A stretch of 64,000 bases of DNA. Origin: Modicisalibacter xianhensis (GTDB lineage Bacteria; Pseudomonadota; Gammaproteobacteria; Pseudomonadales; Halomonadaceae). Below are positions 1 through 5,634 of the stretch, piece by piece. The stretch is from positions 62,001-126,000 of the forward strand of contig NZ_FOPY01000006.1 of assembly GCF_900113605.1 (NCBI RefSeq), in the 5' to 3' direction. Position numbers and translations under genes: made by a program. Every line of letters begins with the position of its first letter. The first letter of the stretch is position 1. A model generated the notes under the pieces. That model had not been told where the DNA came from. It saw only the letters and a program-made list of their open reading frames with translations, and did no database searches.

Positions 1-794
1 AGATGTATCTCAAGGACGAACAGGCGCTGCTCGACTATCTCACCTCGACTGCCCTGGATGGCGCTCGCCTGCATGTGCACGCCGATGCACCGGGAATCGG
101 TGGCGAACAGCTCGAGACGCTGGTGAGCCAGTATCGTGACGTGATGAAGCGCATCGACCGTTTGTCGCGCGTCTATCCCAACGAGGTGCTGCGCAAGATC
201 GTTCATGCCGCGACCCTGAAAGGCGAAGAGAGCCTCAAGGATCGCGTGACGATGCAGAACTGGATCGAGTTCTTGCAGGCGGAGATGGATGCTCTGGTAG
301 CTTACGAAGGCGGGCCGCGGCATGTCTTCCAGCTGCAGGAGGATACCGAACGTGGCATCTTCCTGCCGAGCGTGGCGCTGACGGCTCATGGTGTGACGAC
401 GGATTACGTCTGGGGGCTGGATTTCTTCCAGAGTGCCGATTATCGCGCCATGGCAGCCCTGGGTGAAACGCTCAATAACCTGCTGGAAGAGGGGGCCTAC
501 GTATCGCGAGGCGAGCGTAGCAAGCCGGTGACCACCTTCTATGAAGCGCTCGACTGGCTGATGGCGGAAGCCCAGCGAGGTCTTTCTATCTCGCGTTACA
601 AGGGGCTGGGTGAGATGAACCCCGACCAGCTTTGGGAAACCACCATGGACCCTGAAACACGGCGCATGCTTCGCGTGTCGATCGAGGACGCTGTCGCGGC
701 CGACATGATGTTTAACACGCTGATGGGCGACGAGGTAGAGCCGCGGCGTGACTTCATCGAACAGTTTGCGCTGATGGCTAATTTGGACGTGTGA
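1..794 (+). CDS. gyrB: DNA gyrase subunit B, C-terminal part (5' end outside window)
   Basis: ATPase subunit of the type II topoisomerase that introduces negative supercoils. Only the last ~263 residues are present; the reading frame is already open at the first base, so the true start lies to the left. The end carries the highly conserved GyrB tail with [25 protein letters not shown] and a final MGDEVEPRR...LDV stretch, which separates it from ParE. A rho-independent terminator follows at 823. In gammaproteobacteria gyrB normally closes the dnaA-dnaN-recF-gyrB run beside oriC, so the replication origin is probably a few kilobases to the left. Confidence 0.97.
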
Positions 795-1232: not shown

Positions 1233-1847
1233 CTACGGATTGATCCATCGAACGTCAACAAGGATACCTGAGGCATCGTAAGACAACCTTGCCCTTAGAT
1301 TGTGTCGCCGCCTCAGTTGAAGCCAGTCCAGCGTCCTGGTCTTGAAATGGATAACTCCGAAATGCATCTTGCCTTTCGTATCGTGTGTCCCCTGCAGTGC
1401 ATCGGTTTCAGTGAGGGTGGCGTCAGCGTGCTCGTTCCCGGGTGGTCCTCCCGTGTAGGTTTGGCGTGTCCAGCTAGGTAGGGCCTGCCAGGCGTGGTTG
1501 GCAACGGCGCTATCTGGCGAGTAAATCCTGGCTGTTCCCTGCAATCGAAGCTGAAGTCGGGTCTGGCCGCAGAAGCCCAGAATTGTCATGTGAGGGTTTC
1601 TGGATAACTCCAGCCACTTGGGGCTGCGTACATCAGTATGAAAGGCGAGTGTCCGCGTTGCCCTATCCGCGTCGCGCAAGACAACCATGCGCGCTTGCGG
1701 TTTGCTCTCGGCATCGACAGAGCAGAGGGTCAAGTAGCGAAAGCCTGACTGCGGGTCGGCCACGGCATTGACAAGTTCAACCCAGGTCGAAGCGTCTATG
1801 TCGGCGAGTGTCAATGGTAGAGATGCCATCGGGTCGTCTGATGCCAT
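1233..1847 (-). CDS. Pyridoxamine 5'-phosphate oxidase-family flavoprotein
   Basis: 204 residues. The N-terminal half resembles the split-barrel FMN-binding fold of the PNPOx family: RYLTLCSVD, PQARMVVLRDADR and LAFHTDVRSPKW follow the layout of PdxH, and the C-terminus keeps the LDWLQLRRRHNLRARL stretch where PdxH carries its dimerisation domain. It is shorter and more divergent than true PdxH, so it may act on another flavin-dependent substrate and I give no symbol. It stands alone between gyrB and gmhB, with wording and base composition less GC-rich than neighbouring genes, suggesting later insertion. No terminator was seen on its 3' side. Confidence 0.75.
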   Translation of the reverse strand: MASDDPMASLPLTLADIDASTWVELVNAVADPQSGFRYLTLCSVDAESKPQARMVVLRDADRATRTLAFHTDVRSPKWLELSRNPHMTILGFCGQTRLQLRLQGTARIYSPDSAVANHAWQALPSWTRQTYTGGPPGNEHADATLTETDALQGTHDTKGKMHFGVIHFKTRTLDWLQLRRRHNLRARLSYDASGILVDVRWINP

Positions 1848-1882: not shown

Positions 1883-2467
1883 TCAGTGCAAGGGTTGTAA
1901 AAAATAGGCGAAGCCCGCCAGATCATCGAATATCCTGACATTAGCCAATCCTCCCTTGGCCTCGGTGCGATGTCCCTTGCCGGTGCGCACCAGAACGCCA
2001 TGGCATCCTTTGCTTTCACCTGCCTGCAGGTCACGCAGGCTATCGCCGACCAGCCAGGCTCCATCGAGACTTTCCAGTTTCAGTACAGCCTGAATTTCGT
2101 CGAGCAAGCCGACACGCGGCTTACGGCAGACGCAATCGTCATCAGGTCCGTGGGGACAATAGGCAATGTGGGCAATGTCACCTCCGGCGTCGCGTACGAG
2201 ATGCTGCAGGCGTTCGTGCATGCGGGTCAGTTCTGCCTCGTCGTAATAACCGCGAGCGATGCCAGACTGATTGGTCGCCACGGCAATCGTCCAGCCATGC
2301 TGGGACAGGTGAGCGATGGCCTCGATGGCCTGAGGGTAGGGCTTCCACTCATCGAGCGATTTGATGTACTCGTCGGAGTCCTCGTTGATGACCCCGTCGC
2401 GGTCGAGGATCACCACTTTTTGTGGCACCAGGTCGTAGGGTTGGGTAGGGAGCGGCTGCTGGCTCAT
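1883..2467 (-). CDS. gmhB: D-glycero-beta-D-manno-heptose-1,7-bisphosphate 7-phosphatase
   Basis: 194-residue HAD-superfamily phosphatase of the ADP-heptose pathway; it removes the 7-phosphate between the two HldE reactions (hldE is at 15067). The N-terminal LDRDGVIN carries the nucleophile and acid aspartates, ATNQSGIARG is motif II with the GmhB loop, and CPHGPDDDCVCRKP supplies the zinc-binding cysteines and histidine. I place the start at the ATG at 2467 (MSQQPL), preceded by AGGAG about 10 bases upstream. The longer frame opening with a GTG at 2503 would begin inside a parS site and translate it, which is unlikely. Confidence 0.93.
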   Translation of the reverse strand: MSQQPLPTQPYDLVPQKVVILDRDGVINEDSDEYIKSLDEWKPYPQAIEAIAHLSQHGWTIAVATNQSGIARGYYDEAELTRMHERLQHLVRDAGGDIAHIAYCPHGPDDDCVCRKPRVGLLDEIQAVLKLESLDGAWLVGDSLRDLQAGESKGCHGVLVRTGKGHRTEAKGGLANVRIFDDLAGFAYFLQPLH

Positions 2468-2486
2468 GATCTGAAGGCTCCTGTCA

Positions 2487-2502
2487 TGTTTCACGTGAAA
2501 CA
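2487..2502. other. parS: parS centromere site, copy 1
   Basis: The 16-base perfect palindrome TGTTTCACGTGAAACA matches the known bacterial chromosomal parS consensus bound by ParB/Spo0J. It lies 20 bases before the gmhB start codon. ParB loads here and spreads, and ParA uses the complex to segregate the replicated origin. The identity is read from the exact sequence; binding was not tested. Confidence 0.9.
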
Positions 2503-2523
2503 CTTCGCCAAGATGCTAGCCCG

Positions 2524-2539
2524 TGTTTCACGTGAAACA
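2524..2539. other. parS: parS centromere site, copy 2
   Basis: A second perfect TGTTTCACGTGAAACA, 37 bases from the first copy (start to start) and placed between the glyS terminator and gmhB. Clustered parS sites close to oriC are typical, and the neighbouring gyrB supports that position. No third copy was found elsewhere in the window. Confidence 0.9.
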
Positions 2540-2547
2540 GTGCGCAT

Positions 2548-2575
2548 GAAAAAGGCCGGCTAGATACCGGCCTTG
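2548..2575 (-). terminator. Rho-independent terminator after glyS
   Basis: Read on the minus strand, AAGGCCGG pairs with CCGGCCTT around a 7-base loop and is followed by a short T tract. It lies 28 bases beyond the glyS stop, so gmhB would need its own promoter or read-through past the second parS site. Confidence 0.75.
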
Positions 2576-2602: not shown

Positions 2603-4669
2603 TTACTGCTGCAGTTCGGCGATATCCGCCACTTCGAGGAACAGCCCTTGAAGGTTAGCCAGCAGTGCCAAGCGATTGCGGCGCACGGCCTCGTCATCGG
2701 CCATGACCATGACCTTGTCGAAGAAGGTGTCGACAGGCTCACGCAGCGCAGCCAGGGCATCCAGTGCCTCGCTGTAACGCGCCTCGGCGAATAGCGGGGC
2801 TACCTCGCGACGGCGCGCCTCCAGGGCATCGGCCAGGGCGCGCTCGGCATCTTCGGCTAGCAGGTCACTGGCGACATGGAGGGAAATGTCATCGCCCTGC
2901 TTGGCGAGGATATTGGAAACACGCTTGTTGGCCGCGGCCAGGGCGGCAGCTTCCTCGCGCTGGCTGAATGAATGCACAGCACGGGTGCGACGGGCGAAAT
3001 CCAGCGGACGGGTTACCGGGCGCGAGCGTACGGCGAGATAGACTTCGACAGCGATACCCTCGTCTTGGGTCCAGGCGCGGAAACGGTCGAGCATGTACTC
3101 GAGCACTTCGTCGACCAGCCCCTCGGCCTTGGGCAGGTCGCGGTGCTGTGCGGCAGCCTGTTCGAGCAATTCGCGCAAATCCAGATCGAGCTCGGCCTTG
3201 ATCAGTATGTTGAGCACGCCGATGGCGGCACGCCGCAAGGCGAACGGGTCCTTGGCGCCAGTGGGACGCTGGCCGATGCCAAAGATACCAGTCAGGGTAT
3301 CGAGACGATCAGCCAGCGCCAGGGCCAGACCGGTCCTGGTCTGCGGAATGTCATCGGCGGCGAAGCGTGGCAGGTATTGCTCCTGCATGGCCAGGGCGAC
3401 GTCCTCGGGCTCGCCATCGTGACGCGCATAATAGCAGCCCATAATGCCCTGCAATTCGGGGAATTCGAGAACCATCTCGCTGACCAGGTCGCACTTGGCG
3501 AGTTGCGCAGCACGCGCGGCATGCTCGCTGTCGCCTTCGATGCGTTCGGCAATGTAGCGGGCCACGGCCTCGCTGCGATCGGCCTTGTCGGCCAAGGTGC
3601 CAAGCTGCTGCTGGAACACCACGCTTGCCAGGCCATCGCGACGCGACGCCAGGCTATGCTTGAGATCGGTCTCGTAGAAGAACGCGGCGTCGGCCAGGCG
3701 AGGGCGAATGACCTTTTCGTTGCCCTCGATGACCTGCTGCGGATCGCGACTGTCGATATTGGAAATGGTGATGAAGGTCGGCTTGAGCTTGCCGTCGCCA
3801 TCGAGCAGGTGGAAGTACTTCTGGTTGGCCTTCATCGATGAGATCAGGCACTCCGCAGGCACCTCGAGGAAGCGCTCGTCGAAGCTGCCAGCCAGCGCTA
3901 CCGGCCATTCCACCAGACCACTGACTTCGTTGAGCAAGTCCTCGTCGATCACTGCCGTGGCTTCCTGAACCTCGGCCTCGGCCAACACCTGCTCGCGGAT
4001 GCTCTCGCGGCGACGCTGGCGGTCGGCCAGCACGTAGGCGTCTTCCAGGACAGCCAGGTAATCGTTGGCATTGGGGAGTGCAATGGCCTGCGGCGCATGG
4101 AAACGGTGCCCGCGTGTCTCACGACCGGACTTGAGGCCAAGGATCTCGGCCTCCACTACATCGCTGCCGTAAAGCATGACTAGCCAATGCACCGGACGCG
4201 AGAATTCGATTCGCGAGACACCCCAGCGCATGTTCTTGGGGACAGGCAAGGCAGCGACCGCCTTGGCAGCGATGGTGGGCAGCAGGGCGGTCACCGCTTC
4301 CCCAGTCTGCTCGTAACGATAGCCTAGCCAGGTGCCTTTGTCGGTTTCCAGATGAATCAGTTCGTCGACACTGACGCCACACGACTGGGCGAAGCCCTGG
4401 GCGGCCCGGGTCGGTTCGCCATCCTTGAACGCCGCTGCCAGTGCAGGGCCGCGACGCTCGATCTGGCGGTCGGGCTGTTTTTCGGCGAGGGCGTCGATCT
4501 GCACGGCCAGACGGCGCGGCGTGGCGTAGGCGCGCACCTCGCCGAACTCGACCTCGGCCTCGCGCAGGCCGGCAGCGATGCCGGAGGCCAGTGAGTCGGA
4601 GAGACTGTCGATGGCGCCCGGCGGCAGTTCCTCGACGCCCAGTTCGACCAGTAGGGTGTTGGATGCCAT
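2603..4669 (-). CDS. glyS: Glycine--tRNA ligase, beta subunit
   Basis: 688-residue beta subunit of the bacterial heterotetrameric glycyl-tRNA synthetase, which contributes tRNA recognition. The N-terminus LLVELGVEELPPGAI is the family signature, MRWG and RPVHW motifs lie near residues 135-155, and the C-terminal DALRP-type domain includes a conserved FFDKVMVMADD. The ATG at 4669 aligns with the E. coli start; a GTG at 4675 would overlap the glyQ stop by four bases and is the alternative. Tight coupling to glyQ fits the equimolar complex. Confidence 0.96.
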   Translation of the reverse strand: MASNTLLVELGVEELPPGAIDSLSDSLASGIAAGLREAEVEFGEVRAYATPRRLAVQIDALAEKQPDRQIERRGPALAAAFKDGEPTRAAQGFAQSCGVSVDELIHLETDKGTWLGYRYEQTGEAVTALLPTIAAKAVAALPVPKNMRWGVSRIEFSRPVHWLVMLYGSDVVEAEILGLKSGRETRGHRFHAPQAIALPNANDYLAVLEDAYVLADRQRRRESIREQVLAEAEVQEATAVIDEDLLNEVSGLVEWPVALAGSFDERFLEVPAECLISSMKANQKYFHLLDGDGKLKPTFITISNIDSRDPQQVIEGNEKVIRPRLADAAFFYETDLKHSLASRRDGLASVVFQQQLGTLADKADRSEAVARYIAERIEGDSEHAARAAQLAKCDLVSEMVLEFPELQGIMGCYYARHDGEPEDVALAMQEQYLPRFAADDIPQTRTGLALALADRLDTLTGIFGIGQRPTGAKDPFALRRAAIGVLNILIKAELDLDLRELLEQAAAQHRDLPKAEGLVDEVLEYMLDRFRAWTQDEGIAVEVYLAVRSRPVTRPLDFARRTRAVHSFSQREEAAALAAANKRVSNILAKQGDDISLHVASDLLAEDAERALADALEARRREVAPLFAEARYSEALDALAALREPVDTFFDKVMVMADDEAVRRNRLALLANLQGLFLEVADIAELQQ

Positions 4670-4671
4670 GC

Positions 4672-5634
4672 TCACGCGTCTCCCTCTTCGGCTAGCGGCT
4701 CTTGGGCAAGTAGTTCCTGGCGCAGGGCGTCGGAGGCCATGGGGAAGCCGGCCGCCTTGCGCGAATCAAAATAGGCGTGGGCCACGTCACGGGCCATGGT
4801 GCGCACACGCAGGATGTAGCGTTGTCGCTCGGTCACCGAGATGGCGTGACGAGCGTCGAGCAGGTTGAAGGTGTGCGAGGCCTTGAGCACCATCTCGTAA
4901 GCGGGCAGGGGCAGGTTGGCTTCGAGCAACTTGGCGCATTCGCCTTCGAGGTGGTCGAAGCTGGCGAACAGGGCCTGCACATCGGCATATTCGAAATTGT
5001 ATGTCGATTGCTCGCGCTCGTTCTGCAGGTAGACATCGCCATAGGTGACCTTGGAGCCGTCGGGCGCCACGGTCCACACCAGGTCATAGACGCTGTCGAC
5101 GTCCTGCAGGTACATGGCGATGCGCTCAAGGCCGTAGGTGAGCTCACCGGTGACCGGGTAGCACTCGATGCCACCGGCCTGCTGGAAATAGGTGAACTGG
5201 GTCACTTCCATGCCGTTGAGCCAGATTTCCCAGCCCAGCCCCCAGGCCCCCAGGGTCGGCGATTCCCAGTTGTCTTCGACAAAACGGATGTCATGCACCA
5301 GCGGGTCGATGCCCAGACGCTCGAGAGAACCGAGGTAAAGTTCCTGAAAGTTTGCCGGGGAGGGCTTCATTACCACCTGGAATTGGTAGTAATGCTGCAG
5401 GCGGTTGGGATTCTCGCCGTACCGCCCATCGGTGGGGCGGCGCGACGGCTGTACGTAGGCGGCATTCCAGGTTTCGGGGCCGATGGAGCGCAGGAACGTA
5501 GCCGGGTGAAAGGTCCCGGCGCCGACTTCCATGTCCAGGGGCTGCATGACCACGCAGCCCTTTTCGGCCCAGTACTGCTGCAGGGCGAGGATCAGGCCCT
5601 GAAAGGTTGTCACGTCTGGCGTCGACTGTGTCAT
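4672..5634 (-). CDS. glyQ: Glycine--tRNA ligase, alpha subunit
   Basis: 320 residues, the usual length, holding the class II catalytic core that makes glycyl-adenylate. Recognisable stretches are [13 protein letters not shown] at the start, [19 protein letters not shown] (motif 2 region) and [19 protein letters not shown]. The start at the ATG at 5634 is chosen over an upstream frame opening at 5682 because a minus-strand TATACT -10 box lies at 5674-5679, between the two, and because the family begins at this point. First gene of a glyQ-glyS operon. Confidence 0.96.

Follow-up and report, generated by a model that had tools for sequence, protein, structure and literature searches.

Two parS sites between glyS and gmhB as predicted parts of an origin-proximal centromere in Modicisalibacter xianhensis

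The glyS-gmhB gap and its two palindromes

Two identical 16-bp palindromes lie between glyS and gmhB in Modicisalibacter xianhensis, which raises the question of what function they serve at this gene boundary. We analyzed them in a 64-kb stretch of DNA (the window, C16:62001-126000) from a draft genome of 4,357,925 bases in 45 contigs. Both copies are exact matches to TGTTTCACGTGAAACA, the common parS sequence of ParABS systems, and their starts are 37 bp apart. An early survey of parS sites is reportedly that of Livny and others from 2007. The window contains only these two matches, even with up to 3 mismatches allowed, and the coordinates and the search agree with an earlier note that described two exact palindromes found nowhere else in this DNA. 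Shuffled windows gave a mean of 0.11 matches at the same tolerance, and 2 matches were reached in 1 of 100 shuffles, so the weight of the pair rests on its exactness. The features of the region are as follows.

3 to 794, plus strand: 3' part of gyrB, which starts outside the window
1233 to 1847, minus strand: pyridoxamine 5'-phosphate oxidase-like gene (PF12766), between gmhB and gyrB
1883 to 2467, minus strand: gmhB, D-glycero-beta-D-manno-heptose 1,7-bisphosphate 7-phosphatase, with an ATG start (NF006506, above cut-off)
2478 to 2482, minus strand: AGGAG, Shine-Dalgarno-like, 10 nt before the gmhB ATG
2487 to 2502, no strand: parS, gmhB-proximal copy, a perfect palindrome 19 bp before the gmhB ATG
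2501 to 2503, minus strand: GTG that opens a 206-aa gmhB reading frame, probably not the real start
2513 to 2518, minus strand: TAGCAT, a weak -10-like candidate hexamer, 5 bp after the glyS-proximal parS in the direction of gmhB
2524 to 2539, no strand: parS, glyS-proximal copy, a perfect palindrome
2549 to 2572, minus strand: terminator-like hairpin of glyS with a GGCCGG stem, a 7-nt loop and a run of 5 U (recognized by inspection and by RNA folding)
2603 to 4675, minus strand: glyS, glycyl-tRNA synthetase beta subunit (PF02092), upstream of the pair

The minus strand thus reads glyQ, glyS, a hairpin with a U run, parS, parS, AGGAG and the gmhB ATG at 2467. An automatic terminator scan did not report the hairpin. 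The earlier note placed the pair between the glyS terminator and gmhB, and this placement holds. Its description of the pair as beside gyrB is correct for the general neighbourhood, but the end of gyrB is 1.7 kb off, and gmhB and the oxidase-like gene intervene.

An origin-proximal cluster and its ParB

We searched the draft genome for further copies of the palindrome. TGTTTCACGTGAAACA occurs four times, at C16:59679, 60309, 64487 and 64524, and no other copy was found with up to 2 mismatches in this assembly, whose 45 contigs make a further unassembled copy possible. The last two copies are the window pair. The first two lie just outside the window, inside recF (L005:13261-14370; C16:59261-60370), where they encode FHVKH in the middle of the gene and MFHVKQ near the C terminus. 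Sites are present at both places in 21 of 26 loci with recF from other families of the order, so codons of recF seem to carry part of the centromere. All four copies span 4.9 kb and sit 3.4-8.2 kb from a cluster of DnaA boxes (C16:56139-56507) just before dnaA, with the glyS-gmhB pair at about 8.2 kb. The earlier note had recognized the 16-mer as the chromosomal ParB site, expected near oriC, and had proposed a genome-wide count and a measurement of the distance to oriC as checks. The count and the distances bear this out, with a few copies that cluster at the origin as in ParABS systems (four of the four found in the draft) and a cognate-type ParB encoded in the genome. An even scatter around the chromosome, which the note had named as a refuting outcome, is excluded within the draft assembly.

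The gene order mnmG-rsmG-parA-parB, typical of a ParABS locus, is present on the same contig as the window pair. parB (C16:9940-10854) codes for a protein of 304 aa with ParB_N, HTH_ParB and ParB_C domains, all above the Pfam cut-offs, and its best matches among solved structures bear the names ParB family protein and Spo0J. We take its GERRWRA motif to be the CTP-binding box. The adjoining gene codes for a ParA-type ATPase that passes the Pfam cut-off for AAA_31 and falls below that of the ParA-specific NCBIfam model (116 of 180 bits). ParB_N was found twice in the genome, at C16:10429-10707 and at C22:123924-124199; the second match belongs to an open frame of 448 aa (L008).

Noc proteins belong to a related DNA-binding family and recognize another 16-bp site, NBS, and PMC7383237 reports that the positions equivalent to R173 and G201 decide between parS and NBS in Caulobacter ParB. 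We aligned the M. xianhensis protein without gaps on its GKSR motif, using the Caulobacter ParB numbering from the same source (PMC7383237). It carries R and G at these positions, which is the parS type, and not the Q and R (Q173/R201-type) of Noc. It also keeps six contacts that are common to ParB and Noc (Q162, G170, K171, S172, N178 and R204). The Noc NCBIfam model scores it below cut-off, at 231 of 315 bits, and its sites are clustered at the origin, unlike those described for Noc.

A segment of up to 38 kb (C16:14207-52220) separates mnmG-rsmG-parA-parB from mnmE and oriC. Among its products are a GmrSD-type protein, a DUF927 protein and, encoded next to mnmE, a tyrosine recombinase. It may have integrated as an island that now parts the par genes from the centromere. 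A search for att repeats of this candidate next to mnmE turned up no exact match of at least 12 bases in the stretches compared.

On the strength of these sequences, the pair very probably represents two of four chromosomal parS sites that jointly form the centromere of this genome, on the gyrB side of oriC. What the genomes show directly is the sequence, number, position and conservation of the parS sites and the presence of parA and parB genes with parS-type residues; ParB binding, clamp loading and segregation at this locus we infer from established work in other bacteria. ParB would recognize each palindrome, load as a CTP-dependent clamp and slide away, and ParA would move the ParB-coated origin region. 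The two glyS-gmhB sites would form a set added at the level of the family, one just past the glyS terminator and one within the gmhB 5' leader.

We compared this arrangement with known systems. Accounts of Pseudomonas aeruginosa (PMC5098823, PMC5521831) describe a similar cluster, in which parS1-parS4 lie near oriC, two of them inside recF, and intergenic sites adjoin promoters. The recF-gyrB-PA0006-glyS neighbourhood of P. aeruginosa is partly shared here, and PA0006 is presumably gmhB. The same accounts place parS3/4 by PA0011/PA0013, beyond glyQ, whereas the window pair lies between glyS and gmhB, and give the P. aeruginosa parS sequence as TGTTCCACGTGGAACM, compared with TGTTTCACGTGAAACA here. 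According to PMC5098823, ParB binds parS1-4 in vivo, and ChIP-seq enrichment extends over more than 20 kb. Caulobacter crescentus is also similar, with about five strong sites in 5 kb at roughly 8 kb from the origin in the accessible text of PMC5815017, which does not assign them to these genes. The Caulobacter work took E. coli as a host that has neither ParB nor parS-like sequence. The same paper reports a hot spot for insertion of extra parS sites that covers recF, gyrB and CCNA0160, by a mechanism the authors call unknown; the hot-spot region so described is where the family of M. xianhensis has native parS sites. Among the matches listed for Halomonas together with parS and ParB, the literature appears to concern plasmids, phages and other subjects.

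Conservation and age of the sites

Exact parS sites are present in 130 of 151 genomes of the family and absent from the other 21. All 14 genomes of the genus, including that of the window, contain exact sites. With up to 1 mismatch, two sites lie between glyS and gmhB in each of the 13 genus genomes in which this could be scored; the locus of the fourteenth, G114, is split over contigs and was left out. Outside the genus we sampled 92 genomes and set aside one without a GlyS match and two with fragmented matches. The remaining 89, together with 13 genus loci and the window, gave 103 family loci. We excluded the 28 that did not hold gmhB, gyrB and recF together in the stretch, which left 75 comparable loci from 16 genera.

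The sites occupy particular places in these 75 loci. With up to 1 mismatch, 59 loci have a site in the glyS-gmhB gap, and 43 of them have two or more (45 and 16 when only exact sites are counted). The gmhB-gyrB gap contains a site in 51 (31 exact), the 3' end of recF in 68 (42 exact) and the middle of recF in 70 (53 exact). No site was found at this tolerance within gyrB, or past recF on the dnaN and dnaA side of the stretch, in any of the 75, and a reversed-pattern control gave 0 matches in 684,931 bases. The 16 loci with no site in the glyS-gmhB gap are all the loci of genera g3, g5 and g7. Because the gap is empty of sites in these 16 loci and no exact copy occurs in 21 of the 151 genomes, neither the position of the pair nor its exact spelling is required for segregation.

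Sites near gyrB vary within the genus. The gmhB-gyrB gap of M. xianhensis has no parS even at 4 mismatches, unlike the 12 other comparable genus loci, all of which have a site there. In 12 of the 75 family loci (G019, G051, G091 and G013 among them), parS directly abuts the gyrB stop codon.

Some family genomes have genes inserted between glyS and gmhB, and in these parS is usually still found near both ends of the gap. Pfam searches of the reading frames between the sites identified an ion-channel gene in L038, with frames of equal length in L041 and L042, an epimerase-like gene in L184, L194, L230 and L239, and an NAD-synthase-like gene, among others, in L199. Bacterial centromere sites are usually regarded as a cluster near the origin. 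The family comparison reveals centromere sites that are kept at particular gene boundaries and outlast gene insertions.

We examined the age of the sites in the wider order. The sample outside the family began with 76 genomes, of which 71 gave a match; 3 of these belonged to the family of the window, and 40 of the other 68 were fetched. Sites were counted at up to 1 mismatch from either TGTTTCACGTGAAACA or TGTTCCACGTGGAACA. recF is contained in 26 of the 40 loci, and both recF sites are present in 21 of these, one in 3 and none in 2. The presence of both in 21 of 26 loci points to an old origin and a wide distribution of the recF sites in the order. In 18 outgroup loci the gmhB match lies no more than 500 bp from where the stretch begins, and no site was found between glyS and gmhB in any of them. 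Since 59 of 75 family loci have such a site and none of these 18 does, the glyS-gmhB sites were apparently gained later, in the family of the window. On this view recF codons would spell two old sites, and the younger ones would occupy gaps between genes; the glyS-gmhB gap, being intergenic, could host added sites at no coding cost.

Individual outgroup loci showed other positions. In family f37, two loci carry a site a short way past glyS; neither has a recF site, and gmhB was not detected in them. Single sites lie 52 bp past gyrB in G302, inside gyrB in G311, inside gmhB in G329 and by the start of recF in G327.

Regulation of gmhB and alternative readings of the pair

ParB bound at the pair would cover the gmhB leader, and a side effect on gmhB transcription is therefore likely. 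The earlier note went further and proposed that ParB may silence or tune gmhB and glyS, which we consider plausible. Repression of gmhB is a weaker suggestion than ParB binding, clamp loading and segregation. The titles and abstract openings of the listed literature on parS, gmhB and glyS contain no description of parS beside gmhB. In P. aeruginosa, PMC5521831 reports that native levels of ParB repress PA0010-PA0015 beside the intergenic parS3/4 and that this repression of the adjacent promoters acts through parS. The same paper, which terms PA0006 a conserved hypothetical protein, states that glyS and PA0006 fall only under excess ParB (PMC5521831).

The P. aeruginosa promoters lend some weight to the reading in which the pair serves gmhB chiefly as a ParB-dependent operator, where ParB loading competes with sigma-70 RNA polymerase and ties LPS heptose synthesis to the partition complex; the need for excess ParB at glyS and PA0006 counts against it. 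We looked for promoter elements next to parS in 59 family loci. In 13 of them TA[C/G]ACT follows the gmhB-proximal parS at exactly 6 bp, and in one more at 5 bp; these 14 loci come from five genera. The proximal parS would supply a -35 box (TTGTTT or TTGTTC), separated by a 17-bp spacer from a -10 box (TACACT or TAGACT). The hexamer was absent from the 30 bp after 57 distal sites and 55 gmhB-gyrB sites, each in both directions, and also after 138 recF sites in the recF sense and the 59 proximal sites in the antisense direction. Of the 14 loci with the hexamer, 13 have T just ahead of parS, compared with 11 of the 45 others (Fisher p 7e-6, with kinship ignored). Shuffled flanks gave a mean of 0.028 loci with the hexamer at +6 and a maximum of 2. 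The 14 loci are related, and several of their leaders are near copies, which reduces the number of independent cases.

The arrangement is missing from 45 of the 59 loci, including the window. The count stayed at 14 when the search took in 64 loci where parS lies no more than 200 bp from gmhB. In the window, no TA[C/G]ACT follows the proximal parS; AGGAG and the ATG come directly. The distal site is followed only by the weak TAGCAT at 5 bp, and no promoter in the gap passes a consensus scan. Its closest relatives, G118 and G122, have no TAGCAT. No conserved promoter was found in the gmhB leader of the window itself.

In some relatives, parS seems from these sequences to form part of the gmhB promoter and to supply its -35 box. 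As an account of the pair as a whole, the operator is a possibility that we regard as less likely than not. We are similarly doubtful of the specific model in which, in part of the family, a centromere half-site would serve as the gmhB -35 box and make ParB loading and transcription mutually exclusive, while in the lineage of the window ParB would cover the whole leader. If the -35 assignment is true, it would tie synthesis of the envelope (LPS core) to the state of the partition complex at the origin. A real gmhB promoter of this kind would offer a simple case, testable with reporters, in which a partition protein switches transcription locally. The best new lead from this analysis is the gmhB promoter with parS in the relatives.

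The close spacing of the two sites could itself matter if they acted as a tandem unit, for example through cooperative clamp loading. Tight exact pairs (two 16-mers with a gap of 5-35 bp) do occur in at least 119 genome stretches, from many phyla among the matches listed. In the family of the window, only 6 of 275 genomes have two exact copies separated by 0-30 bp. The last two sites before gmhB are 31 to 1775 bp apart in 51 of the 90 family loci with gmhB, and other genes sit between the sites in several genomes. We rejected a tight tandem unit because of this range of spacing and the intervening genes, and consider it improbable.

Less probable still is a role of the palindromes at the RNA level, in which the paired copies would give the gmhB leader a long hairpin and thereby adjust transcription or translation. 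The 148-nt leader does fold at -54.9 kcal/mol with the copies paired (z -4.33; 0 of 200 shuffles as stable), but any two copies of one palindrome would pair in this way. The sites also persist where an intervening gene precludes a close hairpin, and the recF sites lie within coding sequence. We rejected the hairpin as a by-product of two palindromes. Chance or an assembly duplication of the 16-mer has practically no claim on the pair and is refuted by an expectation from base composition of 0.0002 exact copies of TGTTTCACGTGAAACA in 4.36 Mb, by flanking letters that differ between the two window copies and by the persistence of sites in relatives whose flanks have diverged. The pair is an ordinary part of the ParABS centromere cluster.

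The gmhB-proximal parS also bears on the annotation of gmhB. The earlier note suggested that a GTG created by one site could mislead gene callers into a 12-residue extension of GmhB. The GTG at 2503-2501 is 12 codons ahead of the ATG at 2467 and has its first G outside the palindrome; a second in-frame GTG lies inside the palindrome, 9 codons ahead of the ATG. The gene-caller trap is real in that the 206-aa frame exists and in-frame starts at the proximal parS recur in 3 of 12 other genus loci (G118, G122 and G019). GmhB itself probably lacks the extension, because the ATG is preceded by the Shine-Dalgarno-like AGGAG, no Shine-Dalgarno-like sequence is visible by eye before the GTG at 2503, and an in-frame start at the proximal parS is missing from 9 of 13 genus loci. 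For 8 of the 9, the match by tblastn sets in at a codon other than a start, so that the frame is certain but the exact start is not. We conclude from these comparisons that the 12-residue N-terminal extension is most likely spurious, and that the trap recurs in the genus because parS itself contains GTG.
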